A stretch of 62,485 nucleotides of DNA, from IMG/VR virus record IMGVR_UViG_3300042691_018704, positions 1 to 62,485 of that record; one strand, 5' to 3'. The translations under genes were made by a program, and so were the position numbers. Under the pieces are notes generated by a model. It saw nothing but the letters and a program-made list of their open reading frames with translations. It had not been told where the DNA came from and searched no databases. This document shows, piece by piece, positions 70 to 27,783 of this stretch; positions within the stretch are counted from its first letter, which is position 1, and every line of letters begins with the position of its first letter. Source of the stretch: a virus.

Positions 70-885
70 TTACTTTGATAATATATGAATTACTGACTCA
101 CTCGGAAAAGAATATTCACCTTCAACAATAACGGTTTGATTGTTATTCATAATGTAGATTTCTTTAGTACCGTCAAAAATCAGGTAATCTGTCTCGTATT
201 TTTTAACGTTACCAGTATCTGCGAACCTAATAGTCACACCATCATTTAATGTTTTGTAGAAAGGTTTAACTTGAGCGGTTTTAGTATTACCCTCAGTTTT
301 AATTAAAACATCAACACCCGATGTCATATCTTCAGAACTATTTAACCCACCAATCTTTGAAACATTATCGTCACCATAGATCCTTTTCAAAAAATTAACA
401 ACACTATCTTCTCTATTCTCACCTAATTTATGTGTGCGATTAAGTGTTGCCATAATACTATTAAATGTGGATGATTCGGTGTTGAATATTCGTTCTTTGA
501 ATGTGTCAATCACCTTAGCCATTTTTCTTGCTTCAAAAAGTTGGTCGTCTTGTGTTCCATTAAAATTCAAAAGTTGGATACCTCTTGATTTTAATACCTT
601 ATTGATATCTCTAACTAATATGGCGAATGCACTATAATTGGTATTTAACTTATTCAAAACCGATCTACCGGGTCCTTCTAAATTAAAAACTCCTGAAACA
701 GTTTCGGAACCTTTTGGGTGAGTTTGCCATAAATCTTTAAACACCACTTCGAGTGCTTTGTCAATTGCTTCACGATAAATCCACTTTACTTTAGGATTAC
801 GGTTAAACAAATCTTTGTACTTACTAACTTCGGAATAGGAACATTTTGTTACTTTTTCTTCGTTGAGAACAAATGAGTTTTTCAT
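70..885 (-). CDS. Putative PD-(D/E)XK-fold nuclease, 271 aa
   Basis: No exact family is recognised. The C-terminal third carries a pattern typical of the PD-(D/E)XK nuclease fold: an acidic helix around residues 155-170 (GENREDSVVNFLKRIYG), then an Asp at 192 in a beta strand (GVDVLI), then a strand with Gln205-Val206-Lys207 (KTAQVKPF), the Q-x-K variant of the E-x-K motif. The N-terminal half is mostly alpha helical with no motif I can name. The ATG overlaps the stop of the superoxide dismutase gene as TAATG, so the two are probably translationally coupled and made together. The substrate is unknown. The pattern could also occur by chance in a non-nuclease, so the functional call is moderate while the reading frame is secure. 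Confidence 0.55.
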   Translation of the reverse strand: MKNSFVLNEEKVTKCSYSEVSKYKDLFNRNPKVKWIYREAIDKALEVVFKDLWQTHPKGSETVSGVFNLEGPGRSVLNKLNTNYSAFAILVRDINKVLKSRGIQLLNFNGTQDDQLFEARKMAKVIDTFKERIFNTESSTFNSIMATLNRTHKLGENREDSVVNFLKRIYGDDNVSKIGGLNSSEDMTSGVDVLIKTEGNTKTAQVKPFYKTLNDGVTIRFADTGNVKKYETDYLIFDGTKEIYIMNNNQTVIVEGEYSFPSESVIHILSK

Positions 886-1559
886 TATTTAGTTGGTTTA
901 AGTTTCTGATATTCTGAACTTACGAAATCCCAATTTACCACTTTCCAAAAGTTTTTGATATATCGGTCTCTCTCATTTCGGTAGCTAAGATAATACGCAT
1001 GTTCCCAAATGTCAAGCCCCAATAAAATTTTTCCTCCATTTCTAATAATATTCATCTCGGGGTTGTCCTGATTGGGTGTAGATACGACACGTAACCTACC
1101 ACTTTTACCCATAATTAACCAAACCCATCCTGAACCAAACCTGTCTAATGCCACTTTTTCAAACTTTTGTTTGAACTCATCATAAGAACCAAAATCTTTG
1201 TTAATTTTTTCTAATAGTTCTTTAGATGGTTTTGTTTTGTTTGGTGATAACATTTTCCAAAATAGTTGGTGGTTATATACACCACCAGCATTATTCCTAA
1301 TTTTCTTGTTATACCTTGATATTTTTTTAATTAAATCTTCTATTGGGATCATTTTTTCATCCGGTAGAAGTTCATTTAATTTTTTAAGGTAAGTTTTATA
1401 ATGTCCATTATAATGAACATCCATAGTATCTTTACCGATAAAATCTGATAATGAATTTAAGTTATAATCTAATTTTTGTGCTTTATAATTGGCTTCAAAA
1501 ATATTCTTACCATCCAATAAAGATTCTAGTAAATGTATTTTTCTCTCAAGTAGTTTCAT
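885..1559 (-). CDS. sod: Superoxide dismutase, Fe/Mn family, Mn-type signature, 224 aa
   Basis: Converts superoxide to oxygen and hydrogen peroxide. All four metal ligands of the Fe/Mn family are visible: His49 (in HYNGHYKTY), His97 (in NHQLFW), Asp183 and His187 (in DIWEHAYY). The family's C-terminal stretch RNERDRYIKNFWKVVNW is nearly intact. Gln164 in STPNQDNP sits where Mn enzymes place their active-site glutamine, and the residues before NHQLFW are Gly-Gly as in Mn enzymes, so a Mn or cambialistic enzyme is expected. Full length for the family; no signal peptide, so cytoplasmic. A TATTTAT promoter motif lies 4 bases upstream; the next gene overlaps its stop. A metabolic enzyme in a lytic-type phage genome; probably protects infected cells from oxidative stress (inference). 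Confidence 0.93.
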   Translation of the reverse strand: MKLLERKIHLLESLLDGKNIFEANYKAQKLDYNLNSLSDFIGKDTMDVHYNGHYKTYLKKLNELLPDEKMIPIEDLIKKISRYNKKIRNNAGGVYNHQLFWKMLSPNKTKPSKELLEKINKDFGSYDEFKQKFEKVALDRFGSGWVWLIMGKSGRLRVVSTPNQDNPEMNIIRNGGKILLGLDIWEHAYYLSYRNERDRYIKNFWKVVNWDFVSSEYQKLKPTK

Positions 1560-1563
1560 ACCA

Positions 1564-1572
1564 TATAAATAT
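1564..1572 (-). promoter_or_regulatory. Putative late promoter motif ATATTTATA before sod
   Basis: Motif 4 bases before the sod ATG. The flanking bases (TTTCCATTATAAGA then the motif) are the same cassette found between the upstream paralogs, so sod shares their promoter unit. Confidence 0.6.
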
Positions 1573-1574
1573 TC

Positions 1575-1598
1575 TTATAATGGAAAGGTATCACCAAC
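1575..1598 (-). pseudogene. Out-of-frame remnant of the paralog C-terminal tail
   Basis: Read on the minus strand this segment would encode VGDTFPL and a stop, matching the in-frame tails of the copies at 2273-2608 (VDGSFPL) and 2623-2964 (YDGDTFPL). Here it lies after the stop of the 1617-1907 copy. A similar remnant (VENAFPL) lies at 1923-1946 after the 1950-2258 copy. These show that gene and promoter cassette were duplicated together. Confidence 0.55.
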
Positions 1599-1616
1599 TT
1601 CCTCCTACCATGGCAA

Positions 1617-1907
1617 TCACATCTCGAGGATGTTTATACCCTCAATTTGAAAAGTATCTCCAACCCATCTAGATATAAGCGAGTCTAACATAGATTCTTC
1701 CATAGGAAGATAACGAAGAATTTTATTTTTAATATCACGATGAACCCATAAATTTTTATCTCCCAATTCCAGATCACCAAATCCTTCAGGATCCATAAAC
1801 CAAATAGTCCCAAGTTCATCTTTTCTCCATTCATATTTCTTAAACTGAGTTTCCATGAATTTTTTGAAAACTGGATATAACTTTTCTTCTGTTACCTTGA
1901 CTTTCAT
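1617..1907 (-). CDS. Tandem paralog A, unknown function, 96 aa
   Basis: Fifth and last copy in transcription order. It begins MKVKVTEEKLYPVFKKF, contains the central strand-like segment IWFMDPEGFGDLEL, then RYLPMEESMLDSLISRWVG and ends early at ILEM compared with copies C and D. Small, soluble, no signal peptide or membrane segment; probably alpha at the start, beta in the middle, alpha at the end. The missing C-terminal tail persists out of frame downstream (1575-1598). I do not recognise the family. Its position just before sod, with the same promoter cassette, suggests joint late expression. Confidence 0.8.
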   Translation of the reverse strand: MKVKVTEEKLYPVFKKFMETQFKKYEWRKDELGTIWFMDPEGFGDLELGDKNLWVHRDIKNKILRYLPMEESMLDSLISRWVGDTFQIEGINILEM

Positions 1908-1911
1908 ACCA

Positions 1912-1920
1912 TATAAATAT
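1912..1920 (-). promoter_or_regulatory. Putative late promoter motif ATATTTATA before paralog A
   Basis: 4 bases before the ATG at 1907; identical in core and spacing to the sod copy. Confidence 0.6.
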
Positions 1921-1949
1921 TCTTACAATGGAAAGGCATTTTCAACGAT

Positions 1950-2258
1950 TTAAAAATTTGGAAACGATTCTATACTGGTGTTTATACCCTCAATTTGAAA
2001 GGTATCTCCAACCCATCTACCCATAAGTGATTCTAACATATATTCTTCCATAGGAATGTAGCGAAGAATTTGATCTTTAATATCACCATAAACCCATAAA
2101 TCTTCATTGTTTTCCAATTCCAAATGACCAAATCCTTCAGGATCCACAAAATCAATACACCCATATTCATCTTTTGTCCATTCATAATTCTTAAACTGAG
2201 TTTCCATAAATTTTTTGAATACTGGATATAACTTTTCTTCTGTTACTTTAACTTTCAT
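1950..2258 (-). CDS. Tandem paralog B, unknown function, 102 aa
   Basis: Same start block (MKVKVTEEKLYPVFKKF) and the same YIPMEEYMLESLMGRWVGDT block as its neighbours. The central part reads IDFVDPEGFGHLEL and is two residues longer in the loop that follows (ENNEDLW). It ends at ESFPNF, with an alternative tail (VENAFPL) left untranslated after the stop. Closest to copy A through residues 70-95 (WVGDTFQIEGIN is shared), so A and B look like the most recent duplication. Function not recognised. Confidence 0.8.
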   Translation of the reverse strand: MKVKVTEEKLYPVFKKFMETQFKNYEWTKDEYGCIDFVDPEGFGHLELENNEDLWVYGDIKDQILRYIPMEEYMLESLMGRWVGDTFQIEGINTSIESFPNF

Positions 2259-2261
2259 AAT

Positions 2262-2270
2262 GATAAATAT
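2262..2270 (-). promoter_or_regulatory. Putative late promoter motif ATATTTATC before paralog B
   Basis: 3 bases before the ATG at 2258; part of the repeated intergenic cassette. Confidence 0.6.
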
Positions 2271-2272
2271 TC

Positions 2273-2608
2273 TTATAATGGAAAGGATCCATCAACTAAT
2301 GGATAGGATTCGTGTCTTGCCAAAGTGGGGGCTAACCCCTTAACTTGAAGGGTCTCTTCTACCCACTTACTCATAAGTGAGTTTAACATAGATTGTTCCA
2401 TAGGAAGATAAGGAAGTATTTTTTTTCTAATATCACGATAGATCAATAAATCCTTAATGTGTACCAATCCCAAATGACCATACCCTTTAGGATCTGAAAA
2501 CCAAATGTCATCATTCCGATCTTTTCTCCATTCATAATTCTTAAACTGAGTTTCCATAAATTTTTTGAAAACAGGGTATAACTTATCTTCTGTTACTTTA
2601 ACTTTCAT
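2273..2608 (-). CDS. Tandem paralog C, unknown function, 111 aa
   Basis: Shares the N-terminal block (MKVKVTEDKLYPVFKKF) and the C-terminal block YLPMEQSMLNSLMSKWVEET. The central segment is IWFSDPKGYGHLGL. It keeps a full C-terminal tail ending VDGSFPL; the codons for FPL and the stop lie inside the conserved cassette (TTTCCATTATAA) that precedes the next copy. Closest to copy D in the WVEETLQVKGL region. No recognised family; small soluble protein. Confidence 0.82.
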   Translation of the reverse strand: MKVKVTEDKLYPVFKKFMETQFKNYEWRKDRNDDIWFSDPKGYGHLGLVHIKDLLIYRDIRKKILPYLPMEQSMLNSLMSKWVEETLQVKGLAPTLARHESYPLVDGSFPL

Positions 2609-2611
2609 ATT

Positions 2612-2620
2612 GATAAATAT
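2612..2620 (-). promoter_or_regulatory. Putative late promoter motif ATATTTATC before paralog C
   Basis: 3 bases before the ATG at 2608; part of the repeated intergenic cassette. Confidence 0.6.
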
Positions 2621-2622
2621 TC

Positions 2623-2964
2623 TTATAATGGAAAGGTATCACCATCATAAAAACGCGGTATTGTAAATTGGGGTACAGTGGGAACGGTTAACCCTTCAAC
2701 TTGAAGGGTTTCTTCTACCCACTTACTCATAAGTGTTTGTAACATAGATTTTTCCATAGGAATGTAGCGAAGAATTTGATCTTTAATCTCACGATAGATT
2801 AATAACTCTTTATTTTTCAACAATCCCATGTGACCATATCCTTCAGGGTCTATGAACCAAATGGAATCAAATTTACCTTTTCTCCATTCATATTTCTTAA
2901 ACTGAGTTTCCATGAATTTTTTGAATAATGGATATAACTTTTCTTCTGTTACTTTAACTTTCAT
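2623..2964 (-). CDS. Tandem paralog D, unknown function, 113 aa
   Basis: Longest copy. Same start block (here YPLFKKF instead of YPVFKKF), central IWFIDPEGYGHMGL, then YIPMEKSMLQTLMSKWVEET and a tail ending YDGDTFPL. It pairs with copy C by the shared WVEETLQV segment. Its own promoter flank differs: the bases before the motif are a run of T/A instead of TTTCCATTATAAGA, because the upstream copy E has a different tail. Function not recognised. Confidence 0.82.
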   Translation of the reverse strand: MKVKVTEEKLYPLFKKFMETQFKKYEWRKGKFDSIWFIDPEGYGHMGLLKNKELLIYREIKDQILRYIPMEKSMLQTLMSKWVEETLQVEGLTVPTVPQFTIPRFYDGDTFPL

Positions 2965-2967
2965 AAT

Positions 2968-2976
2968 GATAAATAT
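2968..2976 (-). promoter_or_regulatory. Putative late promoter motif ATATTTATC before paralog D
   Basis: 3 bases before the ATG at 2964. Confidence 0.6.
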
Positions 2977-2983
2977 ATTATTA

Positions 2984-3307
2984 TTATCTATTAAGGCTAA
3001 TCAAAACCAACTGTTGAAACTGCGAGAGGGTTATACCCTTAATATTTAAGGTCTCTCCTACCCATCTAGTCATAAGTGATAGGAACATAGATCGTTCCAT
3101 AGGAAGGTAATTAAGGATTTTTTTTGCGGTTTTAGCATAAATTAATAAAGTTTTATCTTTACTCAACGCCAAATAAGAATCTCCTCCGGGACTCATAAAC
3201 AAAACAACATCATAATTATCTTCGATCCATTCATAATTCTTAAACTGAGTTTCCATAAATTTTTTGAAAACAGGGTATAACTTATCTTCTGTTACTTTAA
3301 CTTTCAT
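2984..3307 (-). CDS. Tandem paralog E, unknown function, 107 aa
   Basis: First copy in transcription order and the most divergent. The start block is MKVKVTEDKLYPVFKKF, identical to copy C. The middle reads VVLFMSPGGDSYLAL and the conserved YLPMERSMFLSLMTRWVGET block follows, but the tail (ending LISLNR) has no counterpart in the other copies. It is preceded by the 3' end of the SNF2 helicase gene with only 16 bases between. Function not recognised. Confidence 0.8.
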   Translation of the reverse strand: MKVKVTEDKLYPVFKKFMETQFKNYEWIEDNYDVVLFMSPGGDSYLALSKDKTLLIYAKTAKKILNYLPMERSMFLSLMTRWVGETLNIKGITLSQFQQLVLISLNR

Positions 3308-3310
3308 AAT

Positions 3311-3319
3311 GATAAATAT
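3311..3319 (-). promoter_or_regulatory. Putative late promoter motif ATATTTATC before paralog E
   Basis: 3 bases before the ATG at 3307, in the 16-base gap after the helicase stop. Confidence 0.6.
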
Positions 3320-3323
3320 ATCA

Positions 3324-5078
3324 TTATCTTTTTGTGTTAATCATATTCATGATTTCCTCCACCATATCACCCTTACTTAAATTATCCCCCATAACGGTTT
3401 CAAAGATGTTTTTCTTCTTTTGTAGAATGTTATAAATAATACCCTCAATCGTGTTATCAAAAATAGGATAATATACCAAAACGTTATTTTTTTGACCATA
3501 ACGATAAGCACGATCCTCGGCTTGTGAGTGATCTGACGGTACAAATGACAGGTCATTCATAACAACAACTTCCGCAGATGTTAATGTGATACCAACCCCA
3601 GCTGCTTTAATGTTCCCAACAAACACCATAATATTTTCATCATTTTGGAATTTATCAACGTTATCTTGTCTCATACCTTGAGGCATACTACCATCAAGAC
3701 CAACCGCTTTTTTTCCGAAGTGAGATAAGATAGAGTTTAACGAGTTGGTAAAATTGGTAAAAACAATTACTTTCTTTCCTTGTTCAATAATGTTTTCACA
3801 TAATTCAATTGTTGATTTTACTTTTTCTTCCGATATAACCTGTCTAACCTTCATTAATTTAGTGAATTGTACGGTTAATGAGGTAGATTCTTTAGAGTTA
3901 TCATACCAATCATAATATTCACCCATCAATCGTTCATATTCATAAGATTTCAATTTAAGATAAACGGGTGTGATGATTTTTTCAGGAAGATCCAATACGT
4001 CGGTTTTTAATCTTCTTAATACTTGACGAGATGTTCTATCTCTTAATTCTTCAAGATTTGACGCACCATTAACATTCCAAACTTTTCTATTCCCTACCTT
4101 GAATTGATAACCTTCACAATATCTCATAACATAAGCCATCCAATTCATTGCAACGGGTGAATCAATCAAACTTAATAAGTTATAATAGTTTATTGGTCTT
4201 GATGTCATTGGTGTTCCGGTTAATAACCATAATCTATCAATTTTTTTAACAAAATCGTTAATAAGTTTTGTTCTTTGTGCTTGTGTGTTTTGAATATAAT
4301 GTGCTTCATCAATAATGACCAACCCAAATCCTTCATTCAATATTTGACTTTCTTCCCGATTTTTTGGATCATGAAAGTTTTTCAAAATGTCATAATTTAC
4401 GATAACAAAATCGGCGGATTCCCATTTCTTCCCATCAATAATTACAACCGATCTATCCGTGTAATTTTCAATCTCACGTTGCCAGTTGATCTTCAATGAT
4501 GCAGGACTAATAATTAAAACCTTCTCAACCCCTGTCTCCAACGCAGCAATAATTGTTTGTGTTGTCTTCCCCAAACCCATATCATCGGCAAGAATGTATT
4601 TTTTATTTCCAACTAATTTCTCAATACCTTCTTTTTGGTGTGAAAGAGGCGGTCTATGTGAATACTTTTCATAGTCAATAACAACCTTAACAGAAGTATC
4701 TTTAATAATTCCTGATTTAGGAATCCAAAAATCATATAATTCCTCGTGTTCAAAATACTTACCCCAAATGTGATAAGACGTATCTTTTTCAACCAATAAC
4801 TTCTCAACCCATATTTTGGTTGGAACTTCGGTTAATAATTTTTCATCAGCAAATTTATTGGCAAAATACATATCAAGTTCCACCCATTTTCTTGCAACTT
4901 TTGGAACGGAATCTTTATAAGCCAAGATATATTCCGCTTGGTTTCTTGTTGGATAGAACTTTTTATTGGTATCTTTTTTGATTTTTAATTTAATAATATA
5001 ATTGTTTGCCCCTGAATAACTATCAAGGACATCAAGTGCTCTGATTTCAAGCGGTTGATTGATTTTTATTTCATTCAT
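3324..5078 (-). CDS. SNF2-family DEAH-box helicase / ATPase, 584 aa
   Basis: Superfamily 2 ATPase of the SNF2/Rad54-like group, expected to translocate on duplex DNA and act in replication fork or recombination transactions. Visible motifs (numbered from the chosen Met): motif I DDMGLGKT at 165-172, motif Ia region SPASLKINWQ at 191-200, motif II DEAH at 257-260, motif III LTGTP at 286-290, and a C-terminal RecA domain with DNVDKFQND, VGITLTSA and motif VI EDRAYRYGQ. The N-terminal ~140 residues are accessory. The frame opens further upstream to a TTG at 5108, but the ATG at 5078 (MNEIKINQ) is preferred because the extension overlaps the divergent promoter region. It is transcribed away from the tail genes. 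T4 uses UvsW as its SF2 repair helicase; this protein may fill that role (inference). Confidence 0.9.
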   Translation of the reverse strand: MNEIKINQPLEIRALDVLDSYSGANNYIIKLKIKKDTNKKFYPTRNQAEYILAYKDSVPKVARKWVELDMYFANKFADEKLLTEVPTKIWVEKLLVEKDTSYHIWGKYFEHEELYDFWIPKSGIIKDTSVKVVIDYEKYSHRPPLSHQKEGIEKLVGNKKYILADDMGLGKTTQTIIAALETGVEKVLIISPASLKINWQREIENYTDRSVVIIDGKKWESADFVIVNYDILKNFHDPKNREESQILNEGFGLVIIDEAHYIQNTQAQRTKLINDFVKKIDRLWLLTGTPMTSRPINYYNLLSLIDSPVAMNWMAYVMRYCEGYQFKVGNRKVWNVNGASNLEELRDRTSRQVLRRLKTDVLDLPEKIITPVYLKLKSYEYERLMGEYYDWYDNSKESTSLTVQFTKLMKVRQVISEEKVKSTIELCENIIEQGKKVIVFTNFTNSLNSILSHFGKKAVGLDGSMPQGMRQDNVDKFQNDENIMVFVGNIKAAGVGITLTSAEVVVMNDLSFVPSDHSQAEDRAYRYGQKNNVLVYYPIFDNTIEGIIYNILQKKKNIFETVMGDNLSKGDMVEEIMNMINTKR

Positions 5079-5108
5079 ACTTAAAAGGTAAATATAATAA
5101 ACAATCAA

Positions 5109-11113: not shown

Positions 11114-11602
11114 ATGGCTGATTTGTTAATGAAAATGCCTATTCCTTATGAACCCAAAAGGAATAACCGATTTATATTAAGATTCCCTTCTTCATTGGGT
11201 ATTAACGAATGGTATGTTCAGAGTTCGGGAAGACCGGCAATAAAAATAGGTAGTACAGAAATACCGTTCTTAAATACAAGTACATTCGTTGCGGGTAGAT
11301 TCAATTGGGACCCGATTAAAGTTGATTTTGTGGATCCTATTGGGCCATCGGCAACACAGGCATTAATGGAGTGGGTTCGTTTGCACGCTGAATCTGTAAC
11401 AGGTCGTATGGGTTATGCTGCGGGTTATAAGAAAAACATTGACTTAGAGATGTTAGATCCAACGGGTGTTGTTGTTGAAAAGTGGATACTTGAAAATACT
11501 TTCTTGACTGATGTATCTTGGTCACAAGCATCATATAGTGATGATAAGTTAGCGACTCTATCTTGTTCATTACGTATGGATCGTTGTATCTTGGTATATT
11601 AA
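11114..11602 (+). CDS. gp19: Tail tube protein, gp19-like, 162 aa
   Basis: Forms the inner tube of the contractile tail. Length is almost that of T4 gp19 (163). Typical features are the N-terminal NRFILRFPSSLGINEWYVQSS strand pair, RPAIKIGSTEIPFLN, the FNWDPIKVDFVDPIGPS segment, and the C-terminal SWSQASYSDDKLATLSCSLRMD strand. It has its own late-type promoter upstream and a strong terminator immediately downstream, consistent with high, separately controlled expression of a major virion protein. Confidence 0.93.
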   Translation: MADLLMKMPIPYEPKRNNRFILRFPSSLGINEWYVQSSGRPAIKIGSTEIPFLNTSTFVAGRFNWDPIKVDFVDPIGPSATQALMEWVRLHAESVTGRMGYAAGYKKNIDLEMLDPTGVVVEKWILENTFLTDVSWSQASYSDDKLATLSCSLRMDRCILVY

Positions 11603-14343: not shown

Positions 14344-14359
14344 TTAAAATGAATTATTG

Positions 14360-17300
14360 ATGGGAACTAGTCCGTTATCGTTTAATGCAACCGAGATCAT
14401 TAGAAAAAGTTTAATTGTAAGGAATCTTAAACCTTACAGAAAACCAGGCGTATATACACCACCAAGTGGTGCGGTTACATACCCAACCGAATTACAGGAT
14501 TATAGTGTAATTGATTCTCCTGATGTTTTAATAGATAACAGTCCTTTTTCTGATAATTTATATAAGATTAATGAATTTGGTCCTAATGGTGGTTTTAATA
14601 AAACTATAAATTATAATAATGTTGTAAGTTCGGGACCTAATAAGGGGGAATATGGACCATTTCCCCCATATATCGATGCTATTGAGAATTATAGTATATC
14701 CTATCAAAAAGCATCGTCAATTATCAACCAATACGGACCTCCCGGAGGTTTTCAAAATCCGTATAATATTGGTTTAATACAAAGGTCTAAAGGTGTTTTG
14801 GCACCGTATTGGGGTCCACCTAGTTTTAGACCCTCATTATATTCACCATATGCGGTTTTACTTTCAAGTAATCCACAAGGGTCGGATGGTACATTATCTT
14901 TGGATTCTGAACCAAGAAGGTTTGATATTGGGGTTGCGTTAAAGGCTAATTTAAAGGCGAGGGTTGATCAAAATGTTAGAACCGAAACAATCGGAAGACT
15001 TACATTCTTAGAGTCACTTAGAGATCCATTTGAGGTGGCTCAAGTTTTGGCGGGTAAAAGACCTATAGTATCAAAAGATTGGACAATTACTGTTCCGTCA
15101 AACGCTATTGGTAAAATGGCGGATATTCTTAACAGAATTGCAGGAACTTACTATCCTGTATCACCGATACCGGGTGATTATTTTGATGAGGATATGACAC
15201 AGAACAACCTTGGTAGAACACAACAAACGGTTGTTGGTGCTGCGGTTGCGGGGGCGTTTGGAACGAGAGGGTCAAGAGGTAGAACACCGTCGGATTTATT
15301 CTTAAAAAATACAGGATCGGGTCAAAAATTCCAACTACAATCTAACATTGAACAAAACAAGTTTAGACCCGCGTTTAGTGATGATGCCGTAGGTGGTATA
15401 TTTTCGTTTAATTTATCAAACTTAACTAAAGGAAACTTTTATGTTGGTTCAAAGGATCAAGATCCGGGATCTTTAACATCACCTCCGGGTGCTATACCAA
15501 AAGATGAAACGGGTAGAGAAGTTAATGCTCCTGTATATGGACCTGAAGTATTGGGTAATAATTATGAAAATAATATACAAATCCAAAACGGTTTTGCGGG
15601 TAAATCTTATGAGGATGCGGGGGGTATTCAAGGAGGGTTCACATGGGTATCACCGAAATATAGTAAAAATGCGGGTAAAAATGTAGCACCTGGTGGTGAT
15701 TATACCACAAATAACCCAACATTTAATAGTATTAGTGATAAATTCAATGCGGGTAAATCAACTAATTATGAATTTAGACCGGGTAGTATTTTAGATGATA
15801 CTCAAAGGTTAATAGATTCACAACCCGATGGTGCTAAGAGACTTAACCACGTTGGTAACGCAATTGACCAAGTATCTAAAGTATTTAGTGATGGGTATAA
15901 GGAATTAACTAAGGGTTCTAGGGTGATATCTTACACTAATGCGTCGGGAACGGAAGCGGGTAGAGAATATTGTAGGGTGTTTGCTAAGGACAAACCATAT
16001 ATTAATTATGAAAATTTACAGAAACAAAAAGGTAGTATCTATCAATTTGTTAATTCTGTAATAACTTCAACATATAATTTGAATATTGTTCCGACAAGTA
16101 ACAACGTTAATCCAACTGCAGTTGAGAAAAACGTTACCAAATACATGTTTAGTATTGAAAACTTGGCTTGGAGAACGTCAAATAAAGAAGGTTTTAGAGT
16201 GTCGGACCTTCCTGCTTGTGAGAGAGGTCCTAATGGGGGTAGAATAATGTGGTTCCCACCTTATGGTTTAACATTTAGTGAGGATTCAAGACCGTCGTTT
16301 AATGAAAATACATTTATTGGACGACCTGAACCTGTTTATACTTATAAAAACACATCAAGATCGGGTCAATTATCATTTAAGATTGTGGTGGATCACCCAT
16401 CTATATTAAATCTTATTGTTAATAAGGTTTTGGCGAATACTGATAGAGAAACTGCTGATAATATCGTTGATTCTTTCTTCGCGGGTTGTAAAGAATATGA
16501 TTTGTATGAATTGGCTCAAACATATAATACCATACCGGCATCGGATTTGGTATATTTTCAATCAATTGTTAATACAACAACACCACAAAATCCTGCAACA
16601 CAGGAATCTACACAACCGATTAATCAATCACAACCGGCACCAATTATTCCTCAACAAACCAAACCATCTGAATTAAATTGGGATAAGTTTAAAAACTTAG
16701 GTTTTTATTTTTACAACGATTATCCCGATCCAAATACGAGATTAACTCAAACAACGAGTGCTTATGATGTTGAATATAATTTCTTATTAAGTAAGGAAAC
16801 AACCTTCATTGAAGTTGCTTCAAGAAATAATACACAAACTGAGATGCAAAATTTCTTTGATGATATTGTTATTGATAACTTCACAACTGTTGGTAATAAA
16901 TTGGTTCCCGAGATAAAGAAAGTTTTGGATGACGGGACTGCTAAAAGTATAACAATTACTTTAATTGGTTCTGCGTCCGCACCTGCAACAATAAGTTACA
17001 ACGTTGATTTGTCAAAAAGAAGAATTGATAGTGTTAAAGATTATTTCCAAAATGTTTTGGGTTCATACATAGATTCGGGAAGATTGAAAATTGATTCGGG
17101 TTCTGCGAGAGGTGAGCAAGAATCAAGTGCTACACTATATAGTTTCAATAAAGGGACTAAATCACAGGGTTATAATTGTACTGACTTAGATACTAAAAAT
17201 ATACCATACAATAAGATATTTTCCGTTCAAGCATCTGCTTGTAGAAGAGTTGCAATTAAGGATATTAAATATGTTCCCGGTGATATTCCTCAAGCACCTC

Positions 17301-19171
17301 CACCACCACAAATAAGTGCGGTACCACCTAAGCAAGAACAAACAACAGGACAATTACCATTGGAAGCACCAAAACCTGTAACGACTACAACCATACAACA
17401 AAAAATTAAAAATGATGTTAGTAAGAGAATTGTTAGATCTTTATTATCTGAGTGTAACTATTTTGATATATTGAAAAGTACTGATCCTGTTGTTTTTGAT
17501 TCAATCAAAGACAAGATCAAATATTTTAATCCAACGTTTCACTCAATGACACCTGAAGGATTAAATTCAAGATTGACATTCTTAAATCAATGTGTAAGAC
17601 CGGGTGATACGATACCAACAATAGGTTTGGATGGAAAACCTGTAACGGATGTTGCAACAAACACCGCGTTTGGTGCCCCACCTGTGTTGGTGCTAAGAAT
17701 TGGTGATTTCTATAATACTAAAATTATTCCAACAAACTTAAGTTTCAAATTTGAAAATTTTGATTTGAATCCCGAAGGTATTGGTATGCAACCGATGATT
17801 TGTGATGTTACGTTAAGTTTTAACTTTATTGGTGGTTCGGGACTTAAAGAACCAATTGAAAAATTACAAAACGCATTATCGTTTAATTATTATGCAAATA
17901 CTGAGATGTATGATGAAAGAGCTGAAAAAACGGAAGATAGAGAACAATTCAATCAACAATTTATTGGTGCATTAGGTTTAACTGAAACTGAGACAACCAC
18001 ATCGGTTTCACAAGCAACTCCGGTTTCCACATCACTTGGTGGTGCAACAATTGGTGAAATTAAGAGTACTACAACCTCTGCGGCAACGTCGGGAACATCT
18101 ACCGTGGTTTATGGTAATATATCATATACTAAAGTGTTTGATGGGTTTGTTACACAGTCTAAAAATTATTATAATGGTGTGTATAATTTCTTAAACGATA
18201 CACTTAAGAATTATAATTATGGGGTATTACAAAACGTTACGAATGTTCTAAAATATAACACAGGTAAGTTCAATCAATATACGTCACCACAAGATGTTAA
18301 TCTATTTGGATCACCTGTAAATATTCAATCCAGGTATGTTTCTTTCTTCTCACAATTACAAAGTAAAATCAATAATGGATCATTATCTCAAATATCCACA
18401 TTAGAACAAAACAGAAATGTTAAAAATAGTGTAGTTAGAGATTTGAAACAGAACTACATAAACTATGTTAGTGGATATGCACCTACGTTTTTAACTAAAC
18501 TTACCACATCAATTCAATCATTGAATACGTTAGAACAAGACTATGTATTTACAATAGATAAATTGAATTATGTATTAACTGAAAGAGATGGTTTCATTGA
18601 AAAGGGAGAACCGAAGTTATATAAAATAACGGGTTCAACTCTTTCGGTAATGACTACTGACTTAACAACAATAGGAACCTATTGTAATCAATTTATAACT
18701 ACTTTAACTGATGGGGATTACCCACCTTATGTGACTCAAAGCTTCAAATTTGACTCTGAAATATTCCCTGTTACTAAATTTGGGTTTACAACTCCGGAAT
18801 CTAAGTTAGAATATATGTTAATGAGTGGTGTTTATATTAATGATTATACTAATTTTATGAGTGCAATCACTAACGGTATCACAGATCCTATTTCACTTAC
18901 AATAATAAATGATGAATTTGGTAAGGTGAAGTCGGTCTTTGAAAGTGCTTATAATACGGAATTAAGTATTGTTGATGATAATAAAAACACAATTAATAAA
19001 GACATTCTAAATGTTGTTGGTATAAACGTTGGTGTTGATAGGACTTGTTCATATACGACTGATTTTACACCAAGTAGTGATGATAAAACAAGATTGAGTA
19101 AATTGTTTAATTCTAATAATGATGCCGATACTGATAATCCTTACAATCTTAAAAAGAAGTTTAAACTATGA
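14360..19171 (+). CDS. Very large baseplate / tube-initiator protein with OmpA-like domain, 1603 aa
   Basis: A virion protein with two segments characteristic of marine T4-like baseplate proteins: RIMWFPPYGLTFSEDSRP with TFIGRPEPVYTYKNTSRSGQ and LSFKIVVDHPSILN (residues ~630-690), and LVLRIGDFYNTKIIPTNLSF with IGMQPMICDVTLSFNFIGGSG (~1110-1165). Between them, residues ~850-965 look like an OmpA-type peptidoglycan-binding domain: SITITLIGSASAPA, YNVDLSKRRIDSVKDYF, then ACRRVAI, matching the Gly-Ser, Asn-x-x-Leu-Ser-x-Arg-Arg and Arg-Arg-Val marks of that family. Pro/Gln-rich linkers flank it (16560-16670, 17280-17400). Likely sits at the tail-tube/baseplate junction (gp48/gp54 position). Stop overlaps the next start as ATGA. 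Confidence 0.75.
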   Translation: MGTSPLSFNATEIIRKSLIVRNLKPYRKPGVYTPPSGAVTYPTELQDYSVIDSPDVLIDNSPFSDNLYKINEFGPNGGFNKTINYNNVVSSGPNKGEYGPFPPYIDAIENYSISYQKASSIINQYGPPGGFQNPYNIGLIQRSKGVLAPYWGPPSFRPSLYSPYAVLLSSNPQGSDGTLSLDSEPRRFDIGVALKANLKARVDQNVRTETIGRLTFLESLRDPFEVAQVLAGKRPIVSKDWTITVPSNAIGKMADILNRIAGTYYPVSPIPGDYFDEDMTQNNLGRTQQTVVGAAVAGAFGTRGSRGRTPSDLFLKNTGSGQKFQLQSNIEQNKFRPAFSDDAVGGIFSFNLSNLTKGNFYVGSKDQDPGSLTSPPGAIPKDETGREVNAPVYGPEVLGNNYENNIQIQNGFAGKSYEDAGGIQGGFTWVSPKYSKNAGKNVAPGGDYTTNNPTFNSISDKFNAGKSTNYEFRPGSILDDTQRLIDSQPDGAKRLNHVGNAIDQVSKVFSDGYKELTKGSRVISYTNASGTEAGREYCRVFAKDKPYINYENLQKQKGSIYQFVNSVITSTYNLNIVPTSNNVNPTAVEKNVTKYMFSIENLAWRTSNKEGFRVSDLPACERGPNGGRIMWFPPYGLTFSEDSRPSFNENTFIGRPEPVYTYKNTSRSGQLSFKIVVDHPSILNLIVNKVLANTDRETADNIVDSFFAGCKEYDLYELAQTYNTIPASDLVYFQSIVNTTTPQNPATQESTQPINQSQPAPIIPQQTKPSELNWDKFKNLGFYFYNDYPDPNTRLTQTTSAYDVEYNFLLSKETTFIEVASRNNTQTEMQNFFDDIVIDNFTTVGNKLVPEIKKVLDDGTAKSITITLIGSASAPATISYNVDLSKRRIDSVKDYFQNVLGSYIDSGRLKIDSGSARGEQESSATLYSFNKGTKSQGYNCTDLDTKNIPYNKIFSVQASACRRVAIKDIKYVPGDIPQAPPPPQISAVPPKQEQTTGQLPLEAPKPVTTTTIQQKIKNDVSKRIVRSLLSECNYFDILKSTDPVVFDSIKDKIKYFNPTFHSMTPEGLNSRLTFLNQCVRPGDTIPTIGLDGKPVTDVATNTAFGAPPVLVLRIGDFYNTKIIPTNLSFKFENFDLNPEGIGMQPMICDVTLSFNFIGGSGLKEPIEKLQNALSFNYYANTEMYDERAEKTEDREQFNQQFIGALGLTETETTTSVSQATPVSTSLGGATIGEIKSTTTSAATSGTSTVVYGNISYTKVFDGFVTQSKNYYNGVYNFLNDTLKNYNYGVLQNVTNVLKYNTGKFNQYTSPQDVNLFGSPVNIQSRYVSFFSQLQSKINNGSLSQISTLEQNRNVKNSVVRDLKQNYINYVSGYAPTFLTKLTTSIQSLNTLEQDYVFTIDKLNYVLTERDGFIEKGEPKLYKITGSTLSVMTTDLTTIGTYCNQFITTLTDGDYPPYVTQSFKFDSEIFPVTKFGFTTPESKLEYMLMSGVYINDYTNFMSAITNGITDPISLTIINDEFGKVKSVFESAYNTELSIVDDNKNTINKDILNVVGINVGVDRTCSYTTDFTPSSDDKTRLSKLFNSNNDADTDNPYNLKKKFKL

Positions 19172-19491
19172 GTTATCAATATTATAATAGATATGTGGAT
19201 TTTGAAGTAAATGGTGGTCAAACCGTTGTCCCATTTGTTCCTTTGAGACCTAAAAACTCGGATCAAAGATACATTTATCGTGTAGGAAGAAGTAGAATGG
19301 ATAAGATATCACAGGAATATTATGGCACACCTTTTTTTGGTTGGTTAATATTACAAGCAAATCCACAATTTGGTGGTTTAGAATGGTCAATACCCGATGG
19401 TACGACAATAAACGTTCCATTTCCATTGGTGGCGACACTACAAGATTATAACGCGGCATTGAATAATTACTTCTTCTATTATGGCAGATAA
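19168..19491 (+). CDS. gp53: Baseplate wedge protein, gp53-like (LysM-like), 107 aa
   Basis: Short protein with a LysM-like core: YRVGRSRMDKISQEYYGTP, then GWLILQANPQFGG and IPDGTTINVPFP. This is the pattern of gp53-type wedge proteins, which bind wedges together in the baseplate. Shorter than T4 gp53 (196), so it holds only the core fold. It overlaps both neighbours: its ATG lies in the stop of the preceding gene (ATGA) and its 3' end overlaps the hub gene by 11 bases, which suggests coupled translation of baseplate parts. Confidence 0.8.
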   Translation: MSYQYYNRYVDFEVNGGQTVVPFVPLRPKNSDQRYIYRVGRSRMDKISQEYYGTPFFGWLILQANPQFGGLEWSIPDGTTINVPFPLVATLQDYNAALNNYFFYYGR

Positions 19492-22400
19492 AAAAATACT
19501 AGTAGATTTTGACTACGACAACATAGTTATTATTGATCCTAATAAAACGGTTGGAACTAATGGGAATAGTTATGATGAACGATTGGTAAATCATGAAGAA
19601 CTTGTCATGTATGCTAATTTGGAAGCCCGTGTAATACCGGGAACAAAACTTGTTCAAGGTTCCACATTAGACGATTCTATCCGAAACGTAAAAATCGCAC
19701 AAATTAATTTCTTAAATCCTGGTGGTAAAGGATACTTTAGTAACGAATATACCGATGAGATTACAGGAAAAAATAGTTTGAAAGGTCAAGGAATTAATCA
19801 AAACTTTCAAAAAGGTAGAGTTTTCCAAGACCCACAAGGTAATAACACTATTGAAAGGTATCAAACAACGGGTAATATACAGGACACTGAACTATTAGGT
19901 ATTGAAAGTATAACGGTAACTAATGATAGGAGTTTTACACCGGTAGTTAATGTTAGGTTAATTGACGTGCAGGGTAGAGCGTTATTTGAAAAAGGTGATA
20001 ATTCACCATATGCTGCATTTTTTAACTTACCATACCCAACATTTTATTTAACAATGAAGGGTTATTATGGTAAAGCTATAAGATATGAATTAATATTACA
20101 AAATTTTGAAGCGTCATTCCAAGGATCCACGGGTGATTATACTGTTAATCTTAAGTTTGTTGCTTACAAATACTCTGTTTTAGCCGAAACTTCGGTGGCA
20201 TATTTGTTTGCATTACCACATATGTATAATACAACTTATAACATTTCACCACCATCTAATACACAGGCTCAAAACGCTGCGTTATTCACTAATGGAAATA
20301 CTAATACAGATGTCAATCAAGTTGTAACGTCAAGAGGATTACAAAAATTAAAAGAAGTTTATCAAGATTATAAATCTCAAAGATTGGTTGATGAGAATTT
20401 CCCCGAGATGACACTTAATCAATTACAGATTAAATTAGAAAAACTTGAAGAAAATTTATTGGCCACATTTGGGAAACAAGATTTCTCTTCATTATCTGAC
20501 GTTGATTCTTATAAGAAAAATCTAATAAACTATCAAAATTCTGTTTATTCTACCGATCTCAATTCGTGGTCATCTAAGTATGTTGATACATCATTGTTTT
20601 ATTATGATAATACAGGTAAAAAGTTTTATCTCTATAAAGAGAATGTTAGACAATCTCAACAAAGTATGAAAGATGCTGAGGTTATACTTGATAAAATAGT
20701 AAAGGAATATAATAAATTATTATCTGAAAACAAAACGTTAGGTAGTGGTGGATCGGCAACTATTAATAATATAAAAAAACTAATAACAGGTCTTAATAAT
20801 GATATCACCGTTGGAACGATTATTCGTGACTTGGGAATGATTGACGAACAAAAAACATTACAAGAAAGGTTAAAAAGAATACCAACAAGTGCTGAAACAG
20901 AAAATTTTAGAATTGAATTAAATAAACTTAAATTTTCTAATACAAGTATAAAGATAAATGGTATTGTCAATAACCAACCCGATAATACGACGGATTCGGA
21001 AGCGGGTCCTGTAAAATTACCTCAAAAGGTAATGTATTTTGAAGGTGAAGGTACTTTTGTTGATTTGATTCAAAAGTTAGATACCAACGCAACCAAAGTA
21101 AGAACACAAATTGAAGATACCTTAACATCTGAATTACAAAAAAAGATTGAGGGTAACAATGGGTTAGGATTTAAACCAACAATGAGAAATGTATGTGCGG
21201 TTTTATTCGCATCGTTAGAGGCGTTCTTACGATTGTTGGATGATGTTCATACTAAGGCTTGGGATGTTAGGTTTGATCCTATTAGAAAGTCGGCAATCCT
21301 GAACAACGAGAATAAAAATAATATAGATACCACGGCTGCGGGTGATATTCCTGTTTATCCTTGGCCACAATATTTTGTTGAAACACAAAACACCACAGAT
21401 GGTGGAAAGTTTGAGTTAAGATATCCTGGTGATCCATCGGTGATTAATCAAACACAGGCTTACAGGTATGATATTTGGCCTGAAGTAGAATTTGTTGAAG
21501 AATATATGAAAGGTTTGGCGGTTAGAGATCTTGAGATTCTACAAAATCCAACAAGTTCCACCAACGAAGAAAAAACTATAAATAGAGTTACGTTAAACGC
21601 TTTTGATTACCCAACAACAAATAGAACCTATTCAATAACAGAGGTTGTTTCATTTATTTATGAAATTTATGAAAGGGTTTTCACTGCGTCATTTTATGAT
21701 AAATTAAATACGGATGTTTCAAATAAGAAGGAGGTTTATAAAACGATTGCTGATTTTGAAACTGAGAATATATTAAAAGCATTAGCAAATGATAATCCCG
21801 AACTAATTAAAATCTTGAAAGATTTTTCAATACAACCGGGAAATATTACTGATTTGATGAGACACATATCTAATGAAGGTAAAGGTATTTCGTGGAATCA
21901 ATTCATTAGAGGTTATTATACAAATAAATATTTGGTTGGAAAAACGGACAAACCATTTCAAGTTTTATCGGGAAATACGACATTAATTGAAACAGTTTTA
22001 CCAAATATTAGTGCGCCATCTAAAAAGAGAGTTTCGGATCTATTGAAGGTAGAAACGGGAAAAGGATTTACGGATTTATACCCATTTGTTTCGGATACAT
22101 TTAATACTAATTCGTTACAAAACGGAGCAACGGACGGACTTAGATTCTACAAAACAACACAAACGTTAGTGTTTAATGATAGAATAAATTATATAACTAA
22201 TTTTGCCACTGCAGATCCTAAAAACGCGCCAAAACCCTTTACTGTATTGGATTATACGGCGTTTAAACCCATTCAATACGATAGTAGCGGTATTCTAACA
22301 CCGTTACAAATATATGCAACAAAATTGGCGGGCGATAGATTAGCAACCGAGGGTGTGTGGGGTGATAGGGTAATATCTATGATGAATACACCATTTTTTA

Positions 22401-25400
22401 CAAATTCTATTTTATCCGGAGTTCAAAGTGAAAGAAGTAATGAAACATATCCGTATGTCCAATCTGCGTATTTATTCTTAAATTCATTACCTTTGGCGAC
22501 TTTGAGAGAAAAATTCGTTAGTGGTGGGACGTATGGTGAATATATCGCTTCGGTTTTAAATAAATATGGTTCGGTTCAATCATTACCTTATTCTTGGATT
22601 ATTAAGTACGGTTCAATTTGGTACAGATATAAGAAACAAGTAAATGAAGGTGTTGATATTTTGGATGGTGTTTGGAAAAACTTTGATTATTCGGCAAATT
22701 ACGATCCAACAACTTCATCAACTACTAGAAGTTACAATACGAAAACATTTGTTAATGGTTCAAGAAGTGATAATACTATCACGTTACAAAATTCAATTAC
22801 TGATACGGTTACATTAACTAATATTACTGCTGGATTTTACCCTAAATTAATAAATGATTTTACTTACTTTACAACAGGTTTTGATTTATTAACAGGATAT
22901 ACAGATTCTGATTATGTTGGTTCAACTTGTGGTAATCAACTTGAAATACGAAATAATGTTGATAATAATGTAAATCAACCATACAATGATGGTGGTGTTA
23001 AATTCTTAAATTATACACCATACGCCATTACATTTGACGTAAATAATAATACTTCATTCCCAAGAAAATACCAACAAAGTATTTTAGTATATCCAAGTTT
23101 CGGATCGCCGGTTAATGAGGTATCTAATTTCTTATTTACTCAAAACAATTTAAGTAGTTATAGTAACTTAAATCAATACAATCAAGTTGAGAATAATCCG
23201 TCAATTTATAATGCAACGACTAATTTCATTTGGGGTTCGGGTCCTTTTGGTTATTTTTCTAGTGCGGCGTTTACAAAACCCGATTATTATGAATACATCA
23301 AGAAAGTCAAAAGTGATGTTAATAAGCAAGATGCGTTTTCTTTTGAAACGGATTTTGAATATACAAGAATTGATGAGATGTTTGCAACATTCTCTAAGGA
23401 AGTGTTAGATGATTTTGAAACAATGTTTTTAGATTTTTGTCGTCCAAAAAGTAATTTCCAAAACCCATATGTTAGTGATGTGACCTTCGGTAATTTTCAA
23501 GCATTAATGACTGACATGATGTTTATTGACCGATTTAACGGTGCGATATCTAATGATGTGTTTATTGCTAAAGTTGCAAATGCTCAACAAGATAAATTAT
23601 CAAATAATTGTAGGTTATTTTTGGATCAAAACGTGTTATTTGTAAATGGAAACCCATCAAACTTTAATAGAAGATTGTATGGCTCATTCCAAACAAATAA
23701 GATAACCGATCCTATTGTATTTAGTCCGTATGTTAATGGTTCATTACCCACAAGTAGTGGAACGGTAACTTTGGAACAGTCAGAGAATTCAAATCCTTTG
23801 GCTTGGAAAGCGTTAAAGACATATGTGGGTTTATATTCATCGGGAACTACGGTACCTTATGGGTTCTATTATTCTAGTGATGGTTCTTATATTACAGATT
23901 TTTTTGTTGATAATAATATTGCATTTACGGAAGCAAATGTTATTACTTGTGCCCCATTAATTAAGGTGTATGCTACCCAAAAATACTTGGCAAATGGTGT
24001 AATGACAAAAGATATTTTCACAACATTAATTGATGATTATGTTAATTCTGCAACGGAGTTACAAACAAATATTTTTACGATATTGTTTAATCAATTAGGA
24101 AAACAACTTCCAATAGTTACGGTTAATTCATCACAAAAAATTAATAGTATTATTGACGGTAACGCACCAAAATATGAGATTTGGGATACTATGAAAACCT
24201 TGGATAATAAGTGGATTGCGGGTAACGACTATAAAGGAAGAACCCTGTTCCAAGATGTTGTATTTTTGGATAGAGCAAATAGAGATATTGGTAGAACCGC
24301 GTTGATTGACATTTTTAGTTTTAAGACGTTATTAAATAACAATCCTCTTAATATGAGAGTGTTGGACTTTTTTAGTAAAATTTTGAGTGATAATAAGTTT
24401 ATGATGATGCCTATGGGGGCTTACATGAATTTTTGGAGTAAAGAATTGATTGATGCTGACGGACAACCAAATCCTGAAAACAGTCAAGATTTGGCACAAA
24501 CATTATTTGGTACCCACCTTAACGTCGATTATAGACAAGCTCGATCAAAAATTGTTTGCATATATGGTGGTAAAGTATCAGAACATTTGGATATGAGAAG
24601 ATCTGATGATTATAGATTTGGAAATGATAGTTTTGATATTACAAGAACTTCCGAGAATGCTTTGTTATTTCAAACACCGGTTAATAAAAATGATTATCAC
24701 CTTTCAAATAAAGTTGTTGGATTTAACGTGGATTTTGGAACAAGATCACAAGGTATGTTTTATAACATTAACCTATCTCAAACCAATTCTCTTGCAACAA
24801 CGGAAGCTAATAAAGTAATTGCTGATACGGCAAGTGCTGCGGGAGGTAAAAGAGGGATTGCACAGAGTTTATCGCTATATAATCTATACAAAAATAGATC
24901 TTATGAAGTTGAAATAACATCATTGGGTAATTCAATGATACAACCAACGATGTATTTTAATTTGAAAAACGTTCCGATGTTTAATGGTCCTTATCATATA
25001 CAGTCGGTAACACACCAAATAGCACCGGGACAATTTACAACACAATTTAAAGGTGTTAGAATACCTATTTATTCTATGCCACAATTGGACAAACAAATTA
25101 CATCGTTAAACCAAGTGGTCTTAAGCGGGTTATTAAGTAAATTGAAGAAAAAGAGGGAGGATGAAAATAATCAAACACCAACCACTGTTAATATAACTAA
25201 TGTTGGAAGTAACGTTACCAACAAAACATCATTTACGTTAGGTTCTAACGCATCATGTGTTAATAAACTTGATCCGTCATATGTATCTTATCAACCTTCC
25301 GATGCATTGATAAGTGAGTTAAGTTTTAAACAAGCGGCTAGATATATTTCACAAGCGACAGCAAATGAGGCTAATAGATTATTAACTTTTTGTACGTTAT

Positions 25401-25897: not shown

Positions 25898-25913
25898 AAA
25901 CAAAGATAATATT

Positions 25914-26138
25914 ATGAATATTAAAGAACATTTAGATAGATACCTTGGTAAGAATACAAGGATTTCACAAAAAACTTTAGATAATGGTTATACTGAGGTG
26001 TGTGATTTAGACACAGGTGATTGTTATCAAATAAGTATGAGAGATGGTTTAATTGAAAGAGTGGATAACGTGAAGAACGCTTCTAGAAAAATCCAAGTCG
26101 AAACACCAACAGGTTATAAACAATTATTAAACGGATAA
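25914..26138 (+). CDS. Small protein of unknown function, 74 aa
   Basis: It opens MNIKEHLDRYLGKNTRISQK, contains a Cys pair (VCDLDTGDCYQI) and ends YKQLLNG. Small, soluble, mixed alpha/beta; no signal peptide or membrane segment. A late-type motif precedes it and only four bases separate it from the next gene, so the two probably form one transcript that ends at the terminator at 26813. Not recognised. Confidence 0.7.
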   Translation: MNIKEHLDRYLGKNTRISQKTLDNGYTEVCDLDTGDCYQISMRDGLIERVDNVKNASRKIQVETPTGYKQLLNG

Positions 26139-26142
26139 TAAG

Positions 26143-26802
26143 ATGTCGGTAGAGAAAAAAATATTGGAAGAATTGTCAAGATACAATCGTATTAACAAAT
26201 ACATAATGGAACAAGAGGCGGTTCCACCTCCTCCAGGAGATGTTCCACCTCCACCACCTGCAGAACCCGAAGGTTCTATTGCACCCCCACCTGTTGGTGG
26301 TGAAGTAGGTCCTCCTGCTGAAGTGATCGATGTTGATGTGGATAAAGATGTTCAAAAGATTGGTGACGAGAAAAAAGAAGAAAAAGACGGAACTGAAGAA
26401 TTGGATGTTACGGACCTAGTAAAATCTCAGGAATCTATTGAGAAAAAACAAAAAGATTATTTTGAAGATTTGTTTAAACAATTAGAAGATTTACAGACAA
26501 AAGTTTCTGAGATGAGTAACTTAACGGATAAGTTAAATCAAATTGAAAATAAGATAGAAAAATACCGTCCAAGAACTCCCGAGGAGAAATTAGAGTTAAG
26601 AAGTTTAGATTCGGGACCATTCAACCAAAAACTTACCGATTTCTTCCAAGAAAAGGAGGAAGATTTTGAAAAAACAGGTAAAGAATATGTTTTAACATCT
26701 GATGAGATTTCAGATTTTACAGATTCTGAAGTTAGAGATACCTTTGATTCATATACAGATGACATGTATTACGGACAACAAAATCAATTTAAGTATCCTT
26801 AA
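26143..26802 (+). CDS. Proline-rich, coiled-coil acidic protein of unknown function, 219 aa
   Basis: A short N-terminal helix (KKILEELSRYNRINKYIMEQ) is followed by a Pro-rich stretch (residues ~27-57, PPPPGDVPPPPPAEPEG), an acidic linker (VDVDKDVQKIGDEKKEE) and a coiled coil (~90-140, YFEDLFKQLEDLQTKV and KLNQIENKIEKYR). The C-terminus is acidic and aromatic (DDMYYGQQNQFKYP). It resembles a scaffold or assembly factor in style, but no family is recognised. It is last in its unit, followed by a strong terminator and then gp32. Confidence 0.72.
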   Translation: MSVEKKILEELSRYNRINKYIMEQEAVPPPPGDVPPPPPAEPEGSIAPPPVGGEVGPPAEVIDVDVDKDVQKIGDEKKEEKDGTEELDVTDLVKSQESIEKKQKDYFEDLFKQLEDLQTKVSEMSNLTDKLNQIENKIEKYRPRTPEEKLELRSLDSGPFNQKLTDFFQEKEEDFEKTGKEYVLTSDEISDFTDSEVRDTFDSYTDDMYYGQQNQFKYP

Positions 26803-26812
26803 AAAAAAATAT

Positions 26813-26835
26813 AGGGGTCTTCGGACCCCTTTTTT
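26813..26835 (+). terminator. Rho-independent terminator with UUCG tetraloop
   Basis: Seven-bp stem AGGGGTC / GACCCCT closed by C(TTCG)G, a very stable tetraloop, and a following T-run. Separates the tail/unknown unit from the replication block. Confidence 0.92.
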
Positions 26836-26837
26836 AA

Positions 26838-26868
26838 TTTGACTATGTTCATTTTTGTTTTATTATTG
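26838..26868 (+). promoter_or_regulatory. Putative host-type (Bacteroidetes) promoter before gp32
   Basis: TTTG (26838-26841), 19-base spacer, TATTATTG (26861-26868), one mismatch from the TAnnTTTG -7 box. Starts about 26 bases before the gp32 ATG, directly after the terminator. Confidence 0.5.
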
Positions 26869-26894
26869 AATTGTAAACACTAAATTTTTTTTAT

Positions 26895-27734: not shown

Positions 27735-27741
27735 TTTAATG

Positions 27742-27783
27742 GGACTTGGATACTTGAATAAATTGGGTATCCAAGTTCTTTTT
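27742..27783 (+). terminator. Rho-independent terminator after gp32
   Basis: Stem of about 12 bp (GGACTTGGATAC at 27742-27753 with GTATCCAAGTTC at 27767-27778, one G-T pair), 13-base loop, then TTTTT. UvsX starts 25 bases later. Confidence 0.87.

Follow-up and report, generated by a model that had tools for sequence, protein, structure and literature searches.

The window, a virus record of 62,485 bases (IMGVR_UViG_3300042691_018704), contains five open reading frames (A–E) of a lake phage. They lie head to tail on the minus strand between an SNF2-type helicase gene and an Fe/Mn superoxide dismutase (SOD) gene (Table 1). A sequence-only reading had described five tandem proteins of about 100 residues here, and these are real. 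The identity of the other copies to A was 58–77%. Between copies, the first 81 nt differed at 0–7 positions and the next 81 nt at 22–37, which bears out the near-constant N-terminus and variable remainder of that reading. In the case of C and E, the first 81 nt were identical and the next 81 nt differed at 36 positions.

Table 1. Features of the array and its flanks (positions in the window)
Feature	Positions	Strand	Remarks
Fe/Mn superoxide dismutase-family gene	885..1559	-	downstream of the array, same promoter block
CCTTTCCATTATAAGAATATTTAT block before the superoxide dismutase gene	1565..1588	-	box 5 nt from ATG
Remnant tail of A, EEVGDTFPL*	1575..1604	-	in frame past two stops
Copy A, 96 aa	1617..1907	-	family protein; C-terminal tail ended by a premature stop
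CCTTTCCATTATAAGAATATTTAT block before A	1913..1936	-	1 mismatch; box 5 nt from ATG
Remnant tail of B, IVENAFPL*	1923..1949	-	in frame past the premature stop
Copy B, 102 aa	1950..2258	-	family protein; C-terminal tail ended by a premature stop
CCTTTCCATTATAAGAATATTTAT block before B	2263..2286	-	end of C and box
Copy C, 111 aa	2273..2608	-	family protein; complete tail ...GSFPL
CCTTTCCATTATAAGAATATTTAT block before C	2613..2636	-	end of D and box
Copy D, 113 aa	2623..2964	-	family protein; complete tail ...GDTFPL; AlphaFold pLDDT 90.8, predicted alpha-beta4-alpha-alpha
TATTTAT box of D	2969..2975	-	4 nt from ATG
Copy E, 107 aa	2984..3307	-	most divergent body; first 81 nt as in C
TATTTAT box of E	3312..3318	-	4 nt from ATG
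SNF2-type DNA helicase gene	3324..5108	-	upstream of the array, context

The C-terminal tails lost from A and B do persist behind these genes, as had been noted, but in the reading frame of the gene, past premature stops, and not out of frame. With stops given as asterisks, the end of A reads ...INILEM*LPW*EEVGDTFPL* and that of B reads ...ESFPNF*IVENAFPL*. Tail and baseplate genes are found near the array. The plus strand of the window has very large ORFs at 14357–19171 (1604 aa), 19481–25870 (2129 aa) and 36401–41239 (1612 aa).

TATTTAT stands close before every ATG of the array, as previously read (4 nt in B–E, 5 nt in A). Before C, B, A and the SOD gene, it is part of a 24-nt block, CCTTTCCATTATAAGAATATTTAT, which recurs with 0–1 mismatch and contains the end of the preceding gene, its stop and the box. 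The block also stands before two copies of the genome's second array. Its recurrence before several copies supports the view that gene and promoter were amplified as a unit. D and E have TATTTAT only; the preceding stop lies inside the shared TTTCCATTATAAGA block for A, B, C and the next gene (SOD), but not for D and E, where it had also been assumed. The phage Fe/Mn superoxide dismutase-family gene seems to have obtained its promoter through block duplication.

The window is included at 99.998% identity in a longer record, IMGVR_UViG_3300008262_000003 (G005; 165,529 bases). This record of the same species corrects the count of five copies in the phage, as it has 14 family paralogs at several sites: the five-copy array of the window, a three-copy array at 34.05–35.09 kb, a single copy at 11.19 kb, four divergent tandem copies at 15.3–16.8 kb and one at 18.0 kb with an extra N-terminal tag. 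The other records with the window array belong to one species (99.9–100% identical). The array was identical across these records apart from one SNP in one record; one record ends within the array, and all records spanning it had five copies. Because all records with the array are of the same species, the five-copy state is comparable only within the species.

The array copies and divergent paralogs gave no assignment in Pfam or PHROG (best PHROG E 0.018). A tblastn search of INPHARED with family proteins gave no match below E 9; matches at E of 2 or worse were ignored in the INPHARED, PHROG and Pfam searches. Single divergent paralogs as queries found matches in the same species only. In the first round, a profile built from the 14 members already matched relatives elsewhere among the viral loci, with E values down to 4e-7. 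The set searched was non-redundant and comprised 94 loci and the G005 genome. After iteration, there were 354 members in 59 loci, and 332 of them covered at least 70% of the profile. The statement that the proteins belong to no recognised family holds for the databases (Pfam, PHROG), but a large family exists, with 332 near-full-length members. The large records (n=19) had 3–16 family copies each, and the longest tandem run was 11 copies (L115). INPHARED and the bacterial genomes of GTDB yielded no relative, so the search gave no host link.

Two AlphaFold models, based on alignments without common sequences, had pLDDT values of 90.8 and 92.6. The order and lengths of the core elements were the same in both: a helix from residue 7, four strands and helices at 58–67 and 72–87. 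Ten BFVD proteins of uncultured Caudovirales phages were matched by both models. The same predicted fold was found in A0A6J5L5U3, A0A6J5L9L5, A0A6J5L9M7 and others, with a TM of up to 0.89; these about ten unannotated proteins have neighbouring accessions, and some of the matches lie within longer proteins. A fold search of the PDB with the model matched nothing (best E 0.6, rejected). Family members have an alpha-beta4-alpha-alpha domain, a W in the last helix and a start of the MK..[ILV]TE type. The sequences show that the members share a common ancestry and that the family is multi-copy. We read it as a large virus-specific family of ~100-residue single-domain proteins in uncultured T4-like phages, and the array as a local tandem expansion within it. 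This places five anonymous ORFs in a family whose members number in the hundreds.

Selection differed along the protein. For nine close paralogs, dN/dS was 0.14 in codons 1–27, 0.80 in codons 28–57 and 0.78 in codons 58–93. The raised ratio expected for the variable centre was found with respect to the N-terminus, but it stayed below 1, and the C-terminal third was equally loose. Positive selection is unsupported, as dN/dS exceeded 1 in none of the three codon segments. Nonsynonymous divergence of the N-terminus was reduced (0 of 300 permutations), while its synonymous divergence was not significantly reduced (permutation fraction 0.22). This means that the constraint acts on the protein. An N-terminus kept constant only by recent gene conversion was rejected: dS was similar, and the idea is unsupported overall. 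Local conversion does happen, as C has the same first 81 nt as E despite their unlike bodies.

Copy number among relatives could be compared in another array of the same family, and both number and order of copies vary there. L113 is 99.98–100% identical to L112 and L114, yet it has two short deletions (at 10455 and 10996), both within the array and both yielding truncated ORFs. L115 (88–95% identical) has extra copies and an altered order in comparison with L112, L113 and L114. In one L115 copy, the body matches one copy (96%) and the N-terminus matches another. These sequences make recombination inside the arrays directly visible, in part at the constant 5' block, with the reservation for all such rearrangements that L112–L115 are metagenome assemblies. 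Since the bodies have diverged, diversification is favoured over dosage. Shuffling multi-copy arrays with a constant head and a variable body would be a natural source of new anti-defence proteins.

Alternatively, a recombination-prone unit of gene and promoter may expand and decay in a near-neutral manner, with little function per copy. A dN/dS of ~0.8 over most of the length would agree with this, and so would the premature stops that shorten A and B and the internal deletions in L113. However, residues 1–27 are under strong constraint (0.14), all 14 paralogs have open frames, the Trp of the last helix is conserved and the family persists in dozens of distant phages. Near-neutral duplication is thus very unlikely to explain the array.

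TATTTAT had been taken for a promoter cassette of the array itself, but it is a lineage-wide box, most probably a promoter of late type. G005 has 152 TATTTAT sites; 52 ORFs had the box within 40 nt upstream in sense and 16 in antisense. For the family genes, the box was found within 35 nt upstream of 170 of 332 (antisense control: 18), and it was the commonest heptamer there. The spacing from box to ATG was 4–6 nt in 156 family genes. Across all genes of the lineage, the spacing was bimodal, with 4–7 and 12–18 nt and few genes at 8–11 nt. In the leadered class, A was enriched 11–13 nt from the start of the box, which is where the leaderless ATG falls. The bimodal spacing and the A enrichment match the prediction for a promoter with a fixed start site. 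The enrichment before genes is directional and at a fixed distance to the predicted start, as in late-type promoters.

A box 4–6 nt before the ATG is also in the position of a ribosome-binding site, and TATTTAT could be a translation-initiation signal instead of a promoter box. This is hardly probable given the second spacing class (12–18 nt), the valley between the classes and the enrichment of A at the expected start. Moreover, first genes that overlap the upstream gene by 4 nt (G005 34769–35089 and 11187–11498) have no box.

The promoter would be read by a phage sigma factor. A candidate is the sigma70-family factor phrog_351, encoded on the minus strand of G005 (78369–79172; L022:18369–19172). 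Late promoters of T4 consist of an 8-bp box, placed one turn upstream of the start, and have no -35 element (PMC2988020). The two systems are alike in the AT richness of the box, in its distance of about one turn from the start site (a predicted one here), in its use for many dispersed genes and in the lack of a strong -35 element. They differ in the box, which is (A/G)TATTTAT here compared with the 8-bp TATA box of T4, and in the mostly leaderless spacing in this family. Unlike the gp55-dependent T4 promoters, TATTTAT is presumably recognised by the sigma70-type phrog_351 factor. The box also precedes untagged genes (38% of untagged ORFs of at least 180 aa) and is therefore no specific mark of virion cargo.

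The host-type box TAnnTTTG occurred 11 times in sense and 6 times in antisense in G005, and naming a host from it was rejected because these counts are too weak. On the minus strand of G005, it was seen 4–5 nt before the ATG upstream of 49158–49508, 49976–50254, 85359–86045 and 86845–87744. We take these boxes to resemble the -7 element of Bacteroidota. At such small counts, they are hints of a Bacteroidota host and of early promoters.

Many proteins of these phages have common N-termini and unrelated bodies. In 144 ORFs, the N-terminus was a long tag, MKKIIRLTESDLVRLVKKVIxE, and 141 of them had its final Glu. The residue two before this Glu was I, L, V or M, as required at P3 by the search pattern (which did not require the Glu), the neighbouring residues (P2 and P1') varied and conservation then ended. 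The bodies behind the long tag, 142 in number, fell into 114 clusters. A second tag of the NLQE type (MNLQENIRRILRE-like) had [ILVM]xE at its end in 57 of 72 cases (shifted control: 2). The family domain was found behind the long tag in L138, L165 and G005 (18017–18583; L019:18017–18583, minus strand), and behind the NLQE-type tag in L116, L160 and L066. A short MKYLITES start was commoner on family domains than either tag. Outside the family, 69 unrelated bodies in 42 clusters also had such short-tag starts. The tagged bodies include ADP-ribosyltransferase, lysozyme with LysM, Tae4-like amidase, peptidoglycan-binding, thioredoxin, P-loop kinase-like and sigma70-like proteins. No paper came up in a literature search for the tag letters, and the family, its scale, the promoter code and the tags appear to be unreported in the literature and databases searched.

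A gp21-type prohead protease was found in 11 of 20 related records (E 1e-22 to 5e-28). The same 11 records had a gp23-type capsid protein near the gp21-type gene (E 2e-62 to 2e-65). No gp21 or gp23 match was found in G005, whose 165.5 kb may be incomplete. All 11 capsid proteins had an invariant [FH]LINE at residue 60 with A or S as the next residue, close to the 65-residue length of the T4 capsid protein propeptide (PMC5694885). In T4, gp21 cleaves after L/I-X-E, and propeptides of 10 residues suffice to target cargo to the head (PMC9026906). The gene after one gp23 homolog (L186:2706–3443, plus strand) starts with MKSNMILEILKKLTEYEKYLNEAS, which is tag-like and ends in LNE.

We tentatively propose, at somewhat less than even confidence, that the lineage has a large capsid-cargo system. 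Many unrelated proteins per genome would carry interchangeable address tags, and the tandem family would be the fast-evolving, copy-number-variable anti-defence part. With [LIV]xE at or near the end of each, the long LTESDL tag, the NLQE tag and the short ITES start may be these address tags, a proposal we hold just as provisionally. If this is true, the tags would make the injected proteome of uncultured phages readable straight from the sequence. A tag ending in [LIV]xE would then be a testable sequence rule for the proteins that uncultured T4-like phages may pack and inject.

In the array copies themselves, the only candidate sites are VTE at residues 5–7 and FME at residues 17–19, both off the L/I-X-E consensus, and VTE is absent in several divergent paralogs. 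In both AlphaFold models, a helix (7–21) runs across the conserved N-terminal block. The N-terminus of the array proteins may be part of the fold and not a propeptide, as the predicted helix spans this region. The weak point of the capsid-delivery reading is that the array copies are without the consensus site and that their block forms the first helix of the predicted fold. These proteins might be delivered uncleaved, or not at all.

The helix and the missing consensus site would also suit a late-expressed, diversifying family that is never packaged and acts within the infected cell, in anti-defence, superinfection exclusion, lysis or host take-over. The MK..ITE start would then be just the first helix and its cap, and a promoter common to many untagged genes fits such a family as well. 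Against this, the same domain stands behind two cleavable-looking tags in other phages, and the short-tag starts are found on unrelated bodies. We consider a purely intracellular role unlikely, though it deserves to be taken seriously.

The late-type promoter and an N-terminus like the head-directed tags would likewise be expected of structural or scaffold/core virion proteins in variant forms (e.g. head-core or neck accessory proteins) that are not effectors, and tail and baseplate genes adjoin the array in the window. However, it would be unusual for structural parts to vary from 3 to 16 copies among related records, to have a body dN/dS near 0.8 and to lose copies between otherwise 99.98% identical genomes. 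A structural role is therefore quite improbable.

By analogy, the likeliest role of the family, on which our confidence is evenly balanced, is that of T4 internal proteins: late-expressed, delivered by the capsid and diversifying against variable host targets. The anatomy of the array is firm; packaging and target we infer. Each copy would be transcribed late from its own -10-only promoter into a leaderless mRNA starting at or beside the ATG. Less certainly, the proteins would be cargo of the phage head, injected together with the DNA, and the copies would each bind another variant of a host target, for which a defence enzyme is the most plausible candidate. The first ~27 residues may provide a shared function (targeting or core assembly) and a recombination block, with the body carrying the specificity.

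T4 Ip1–3 are packaged and injected, each blocks a different GmrSD, and they have no mutual homology beyond the leader (PMC12373910). Like the array proteins, Ip1, Ip2 and Ip3 are small, combine a constant N-terminus with a variable body and number several per phage, in loci of their own. The T4 protease gp21 and capsid protein gp23 have counterparts in the lineage, in 11 of the 20 related records. The predicted fold of the array proteins resembles mature IPI, which is also small and alpha/beta, with a helix at either end (PMC3012670). Unlike the T4 internal proteins, in which only the leader is common, the array family shares a whole domain, forms tandem runs of up to 11 with up to 16 copies per record and has no consensus L/I-X-E site in the array copies. 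No sequence relation of the family to T4 internal proteins was found (INPHARED tblastn, PHROG, Pfam). The likeness to T4 internal-protein loci is a comparison of how they may work; membership is not established. T4 tifA is an anti-defence gene amplified in tandem (PMC9391042). Under ToxIN selection, this small counter-defence gene was amplified by recombination, as proposed here; the tifA copies are recent, identical and from the laboratory, whereas the array copies are old and diverged.

With lysozyme and amidase among the putative tagged cargo, a lysis role would fit, too. The Pfam matches of a 619-aa protein (G005 25912–27771) were rejected as noise, with no domain passing alone. At 22.8–31.4 kb of G005 (L020:2796–11405), a run of genes has MNLQE-type N-termini and unrelated bodies. 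One body in this run is a polyvalent-protein-type ADP-ribosyltransferase, reminiscent of T4 Alt.
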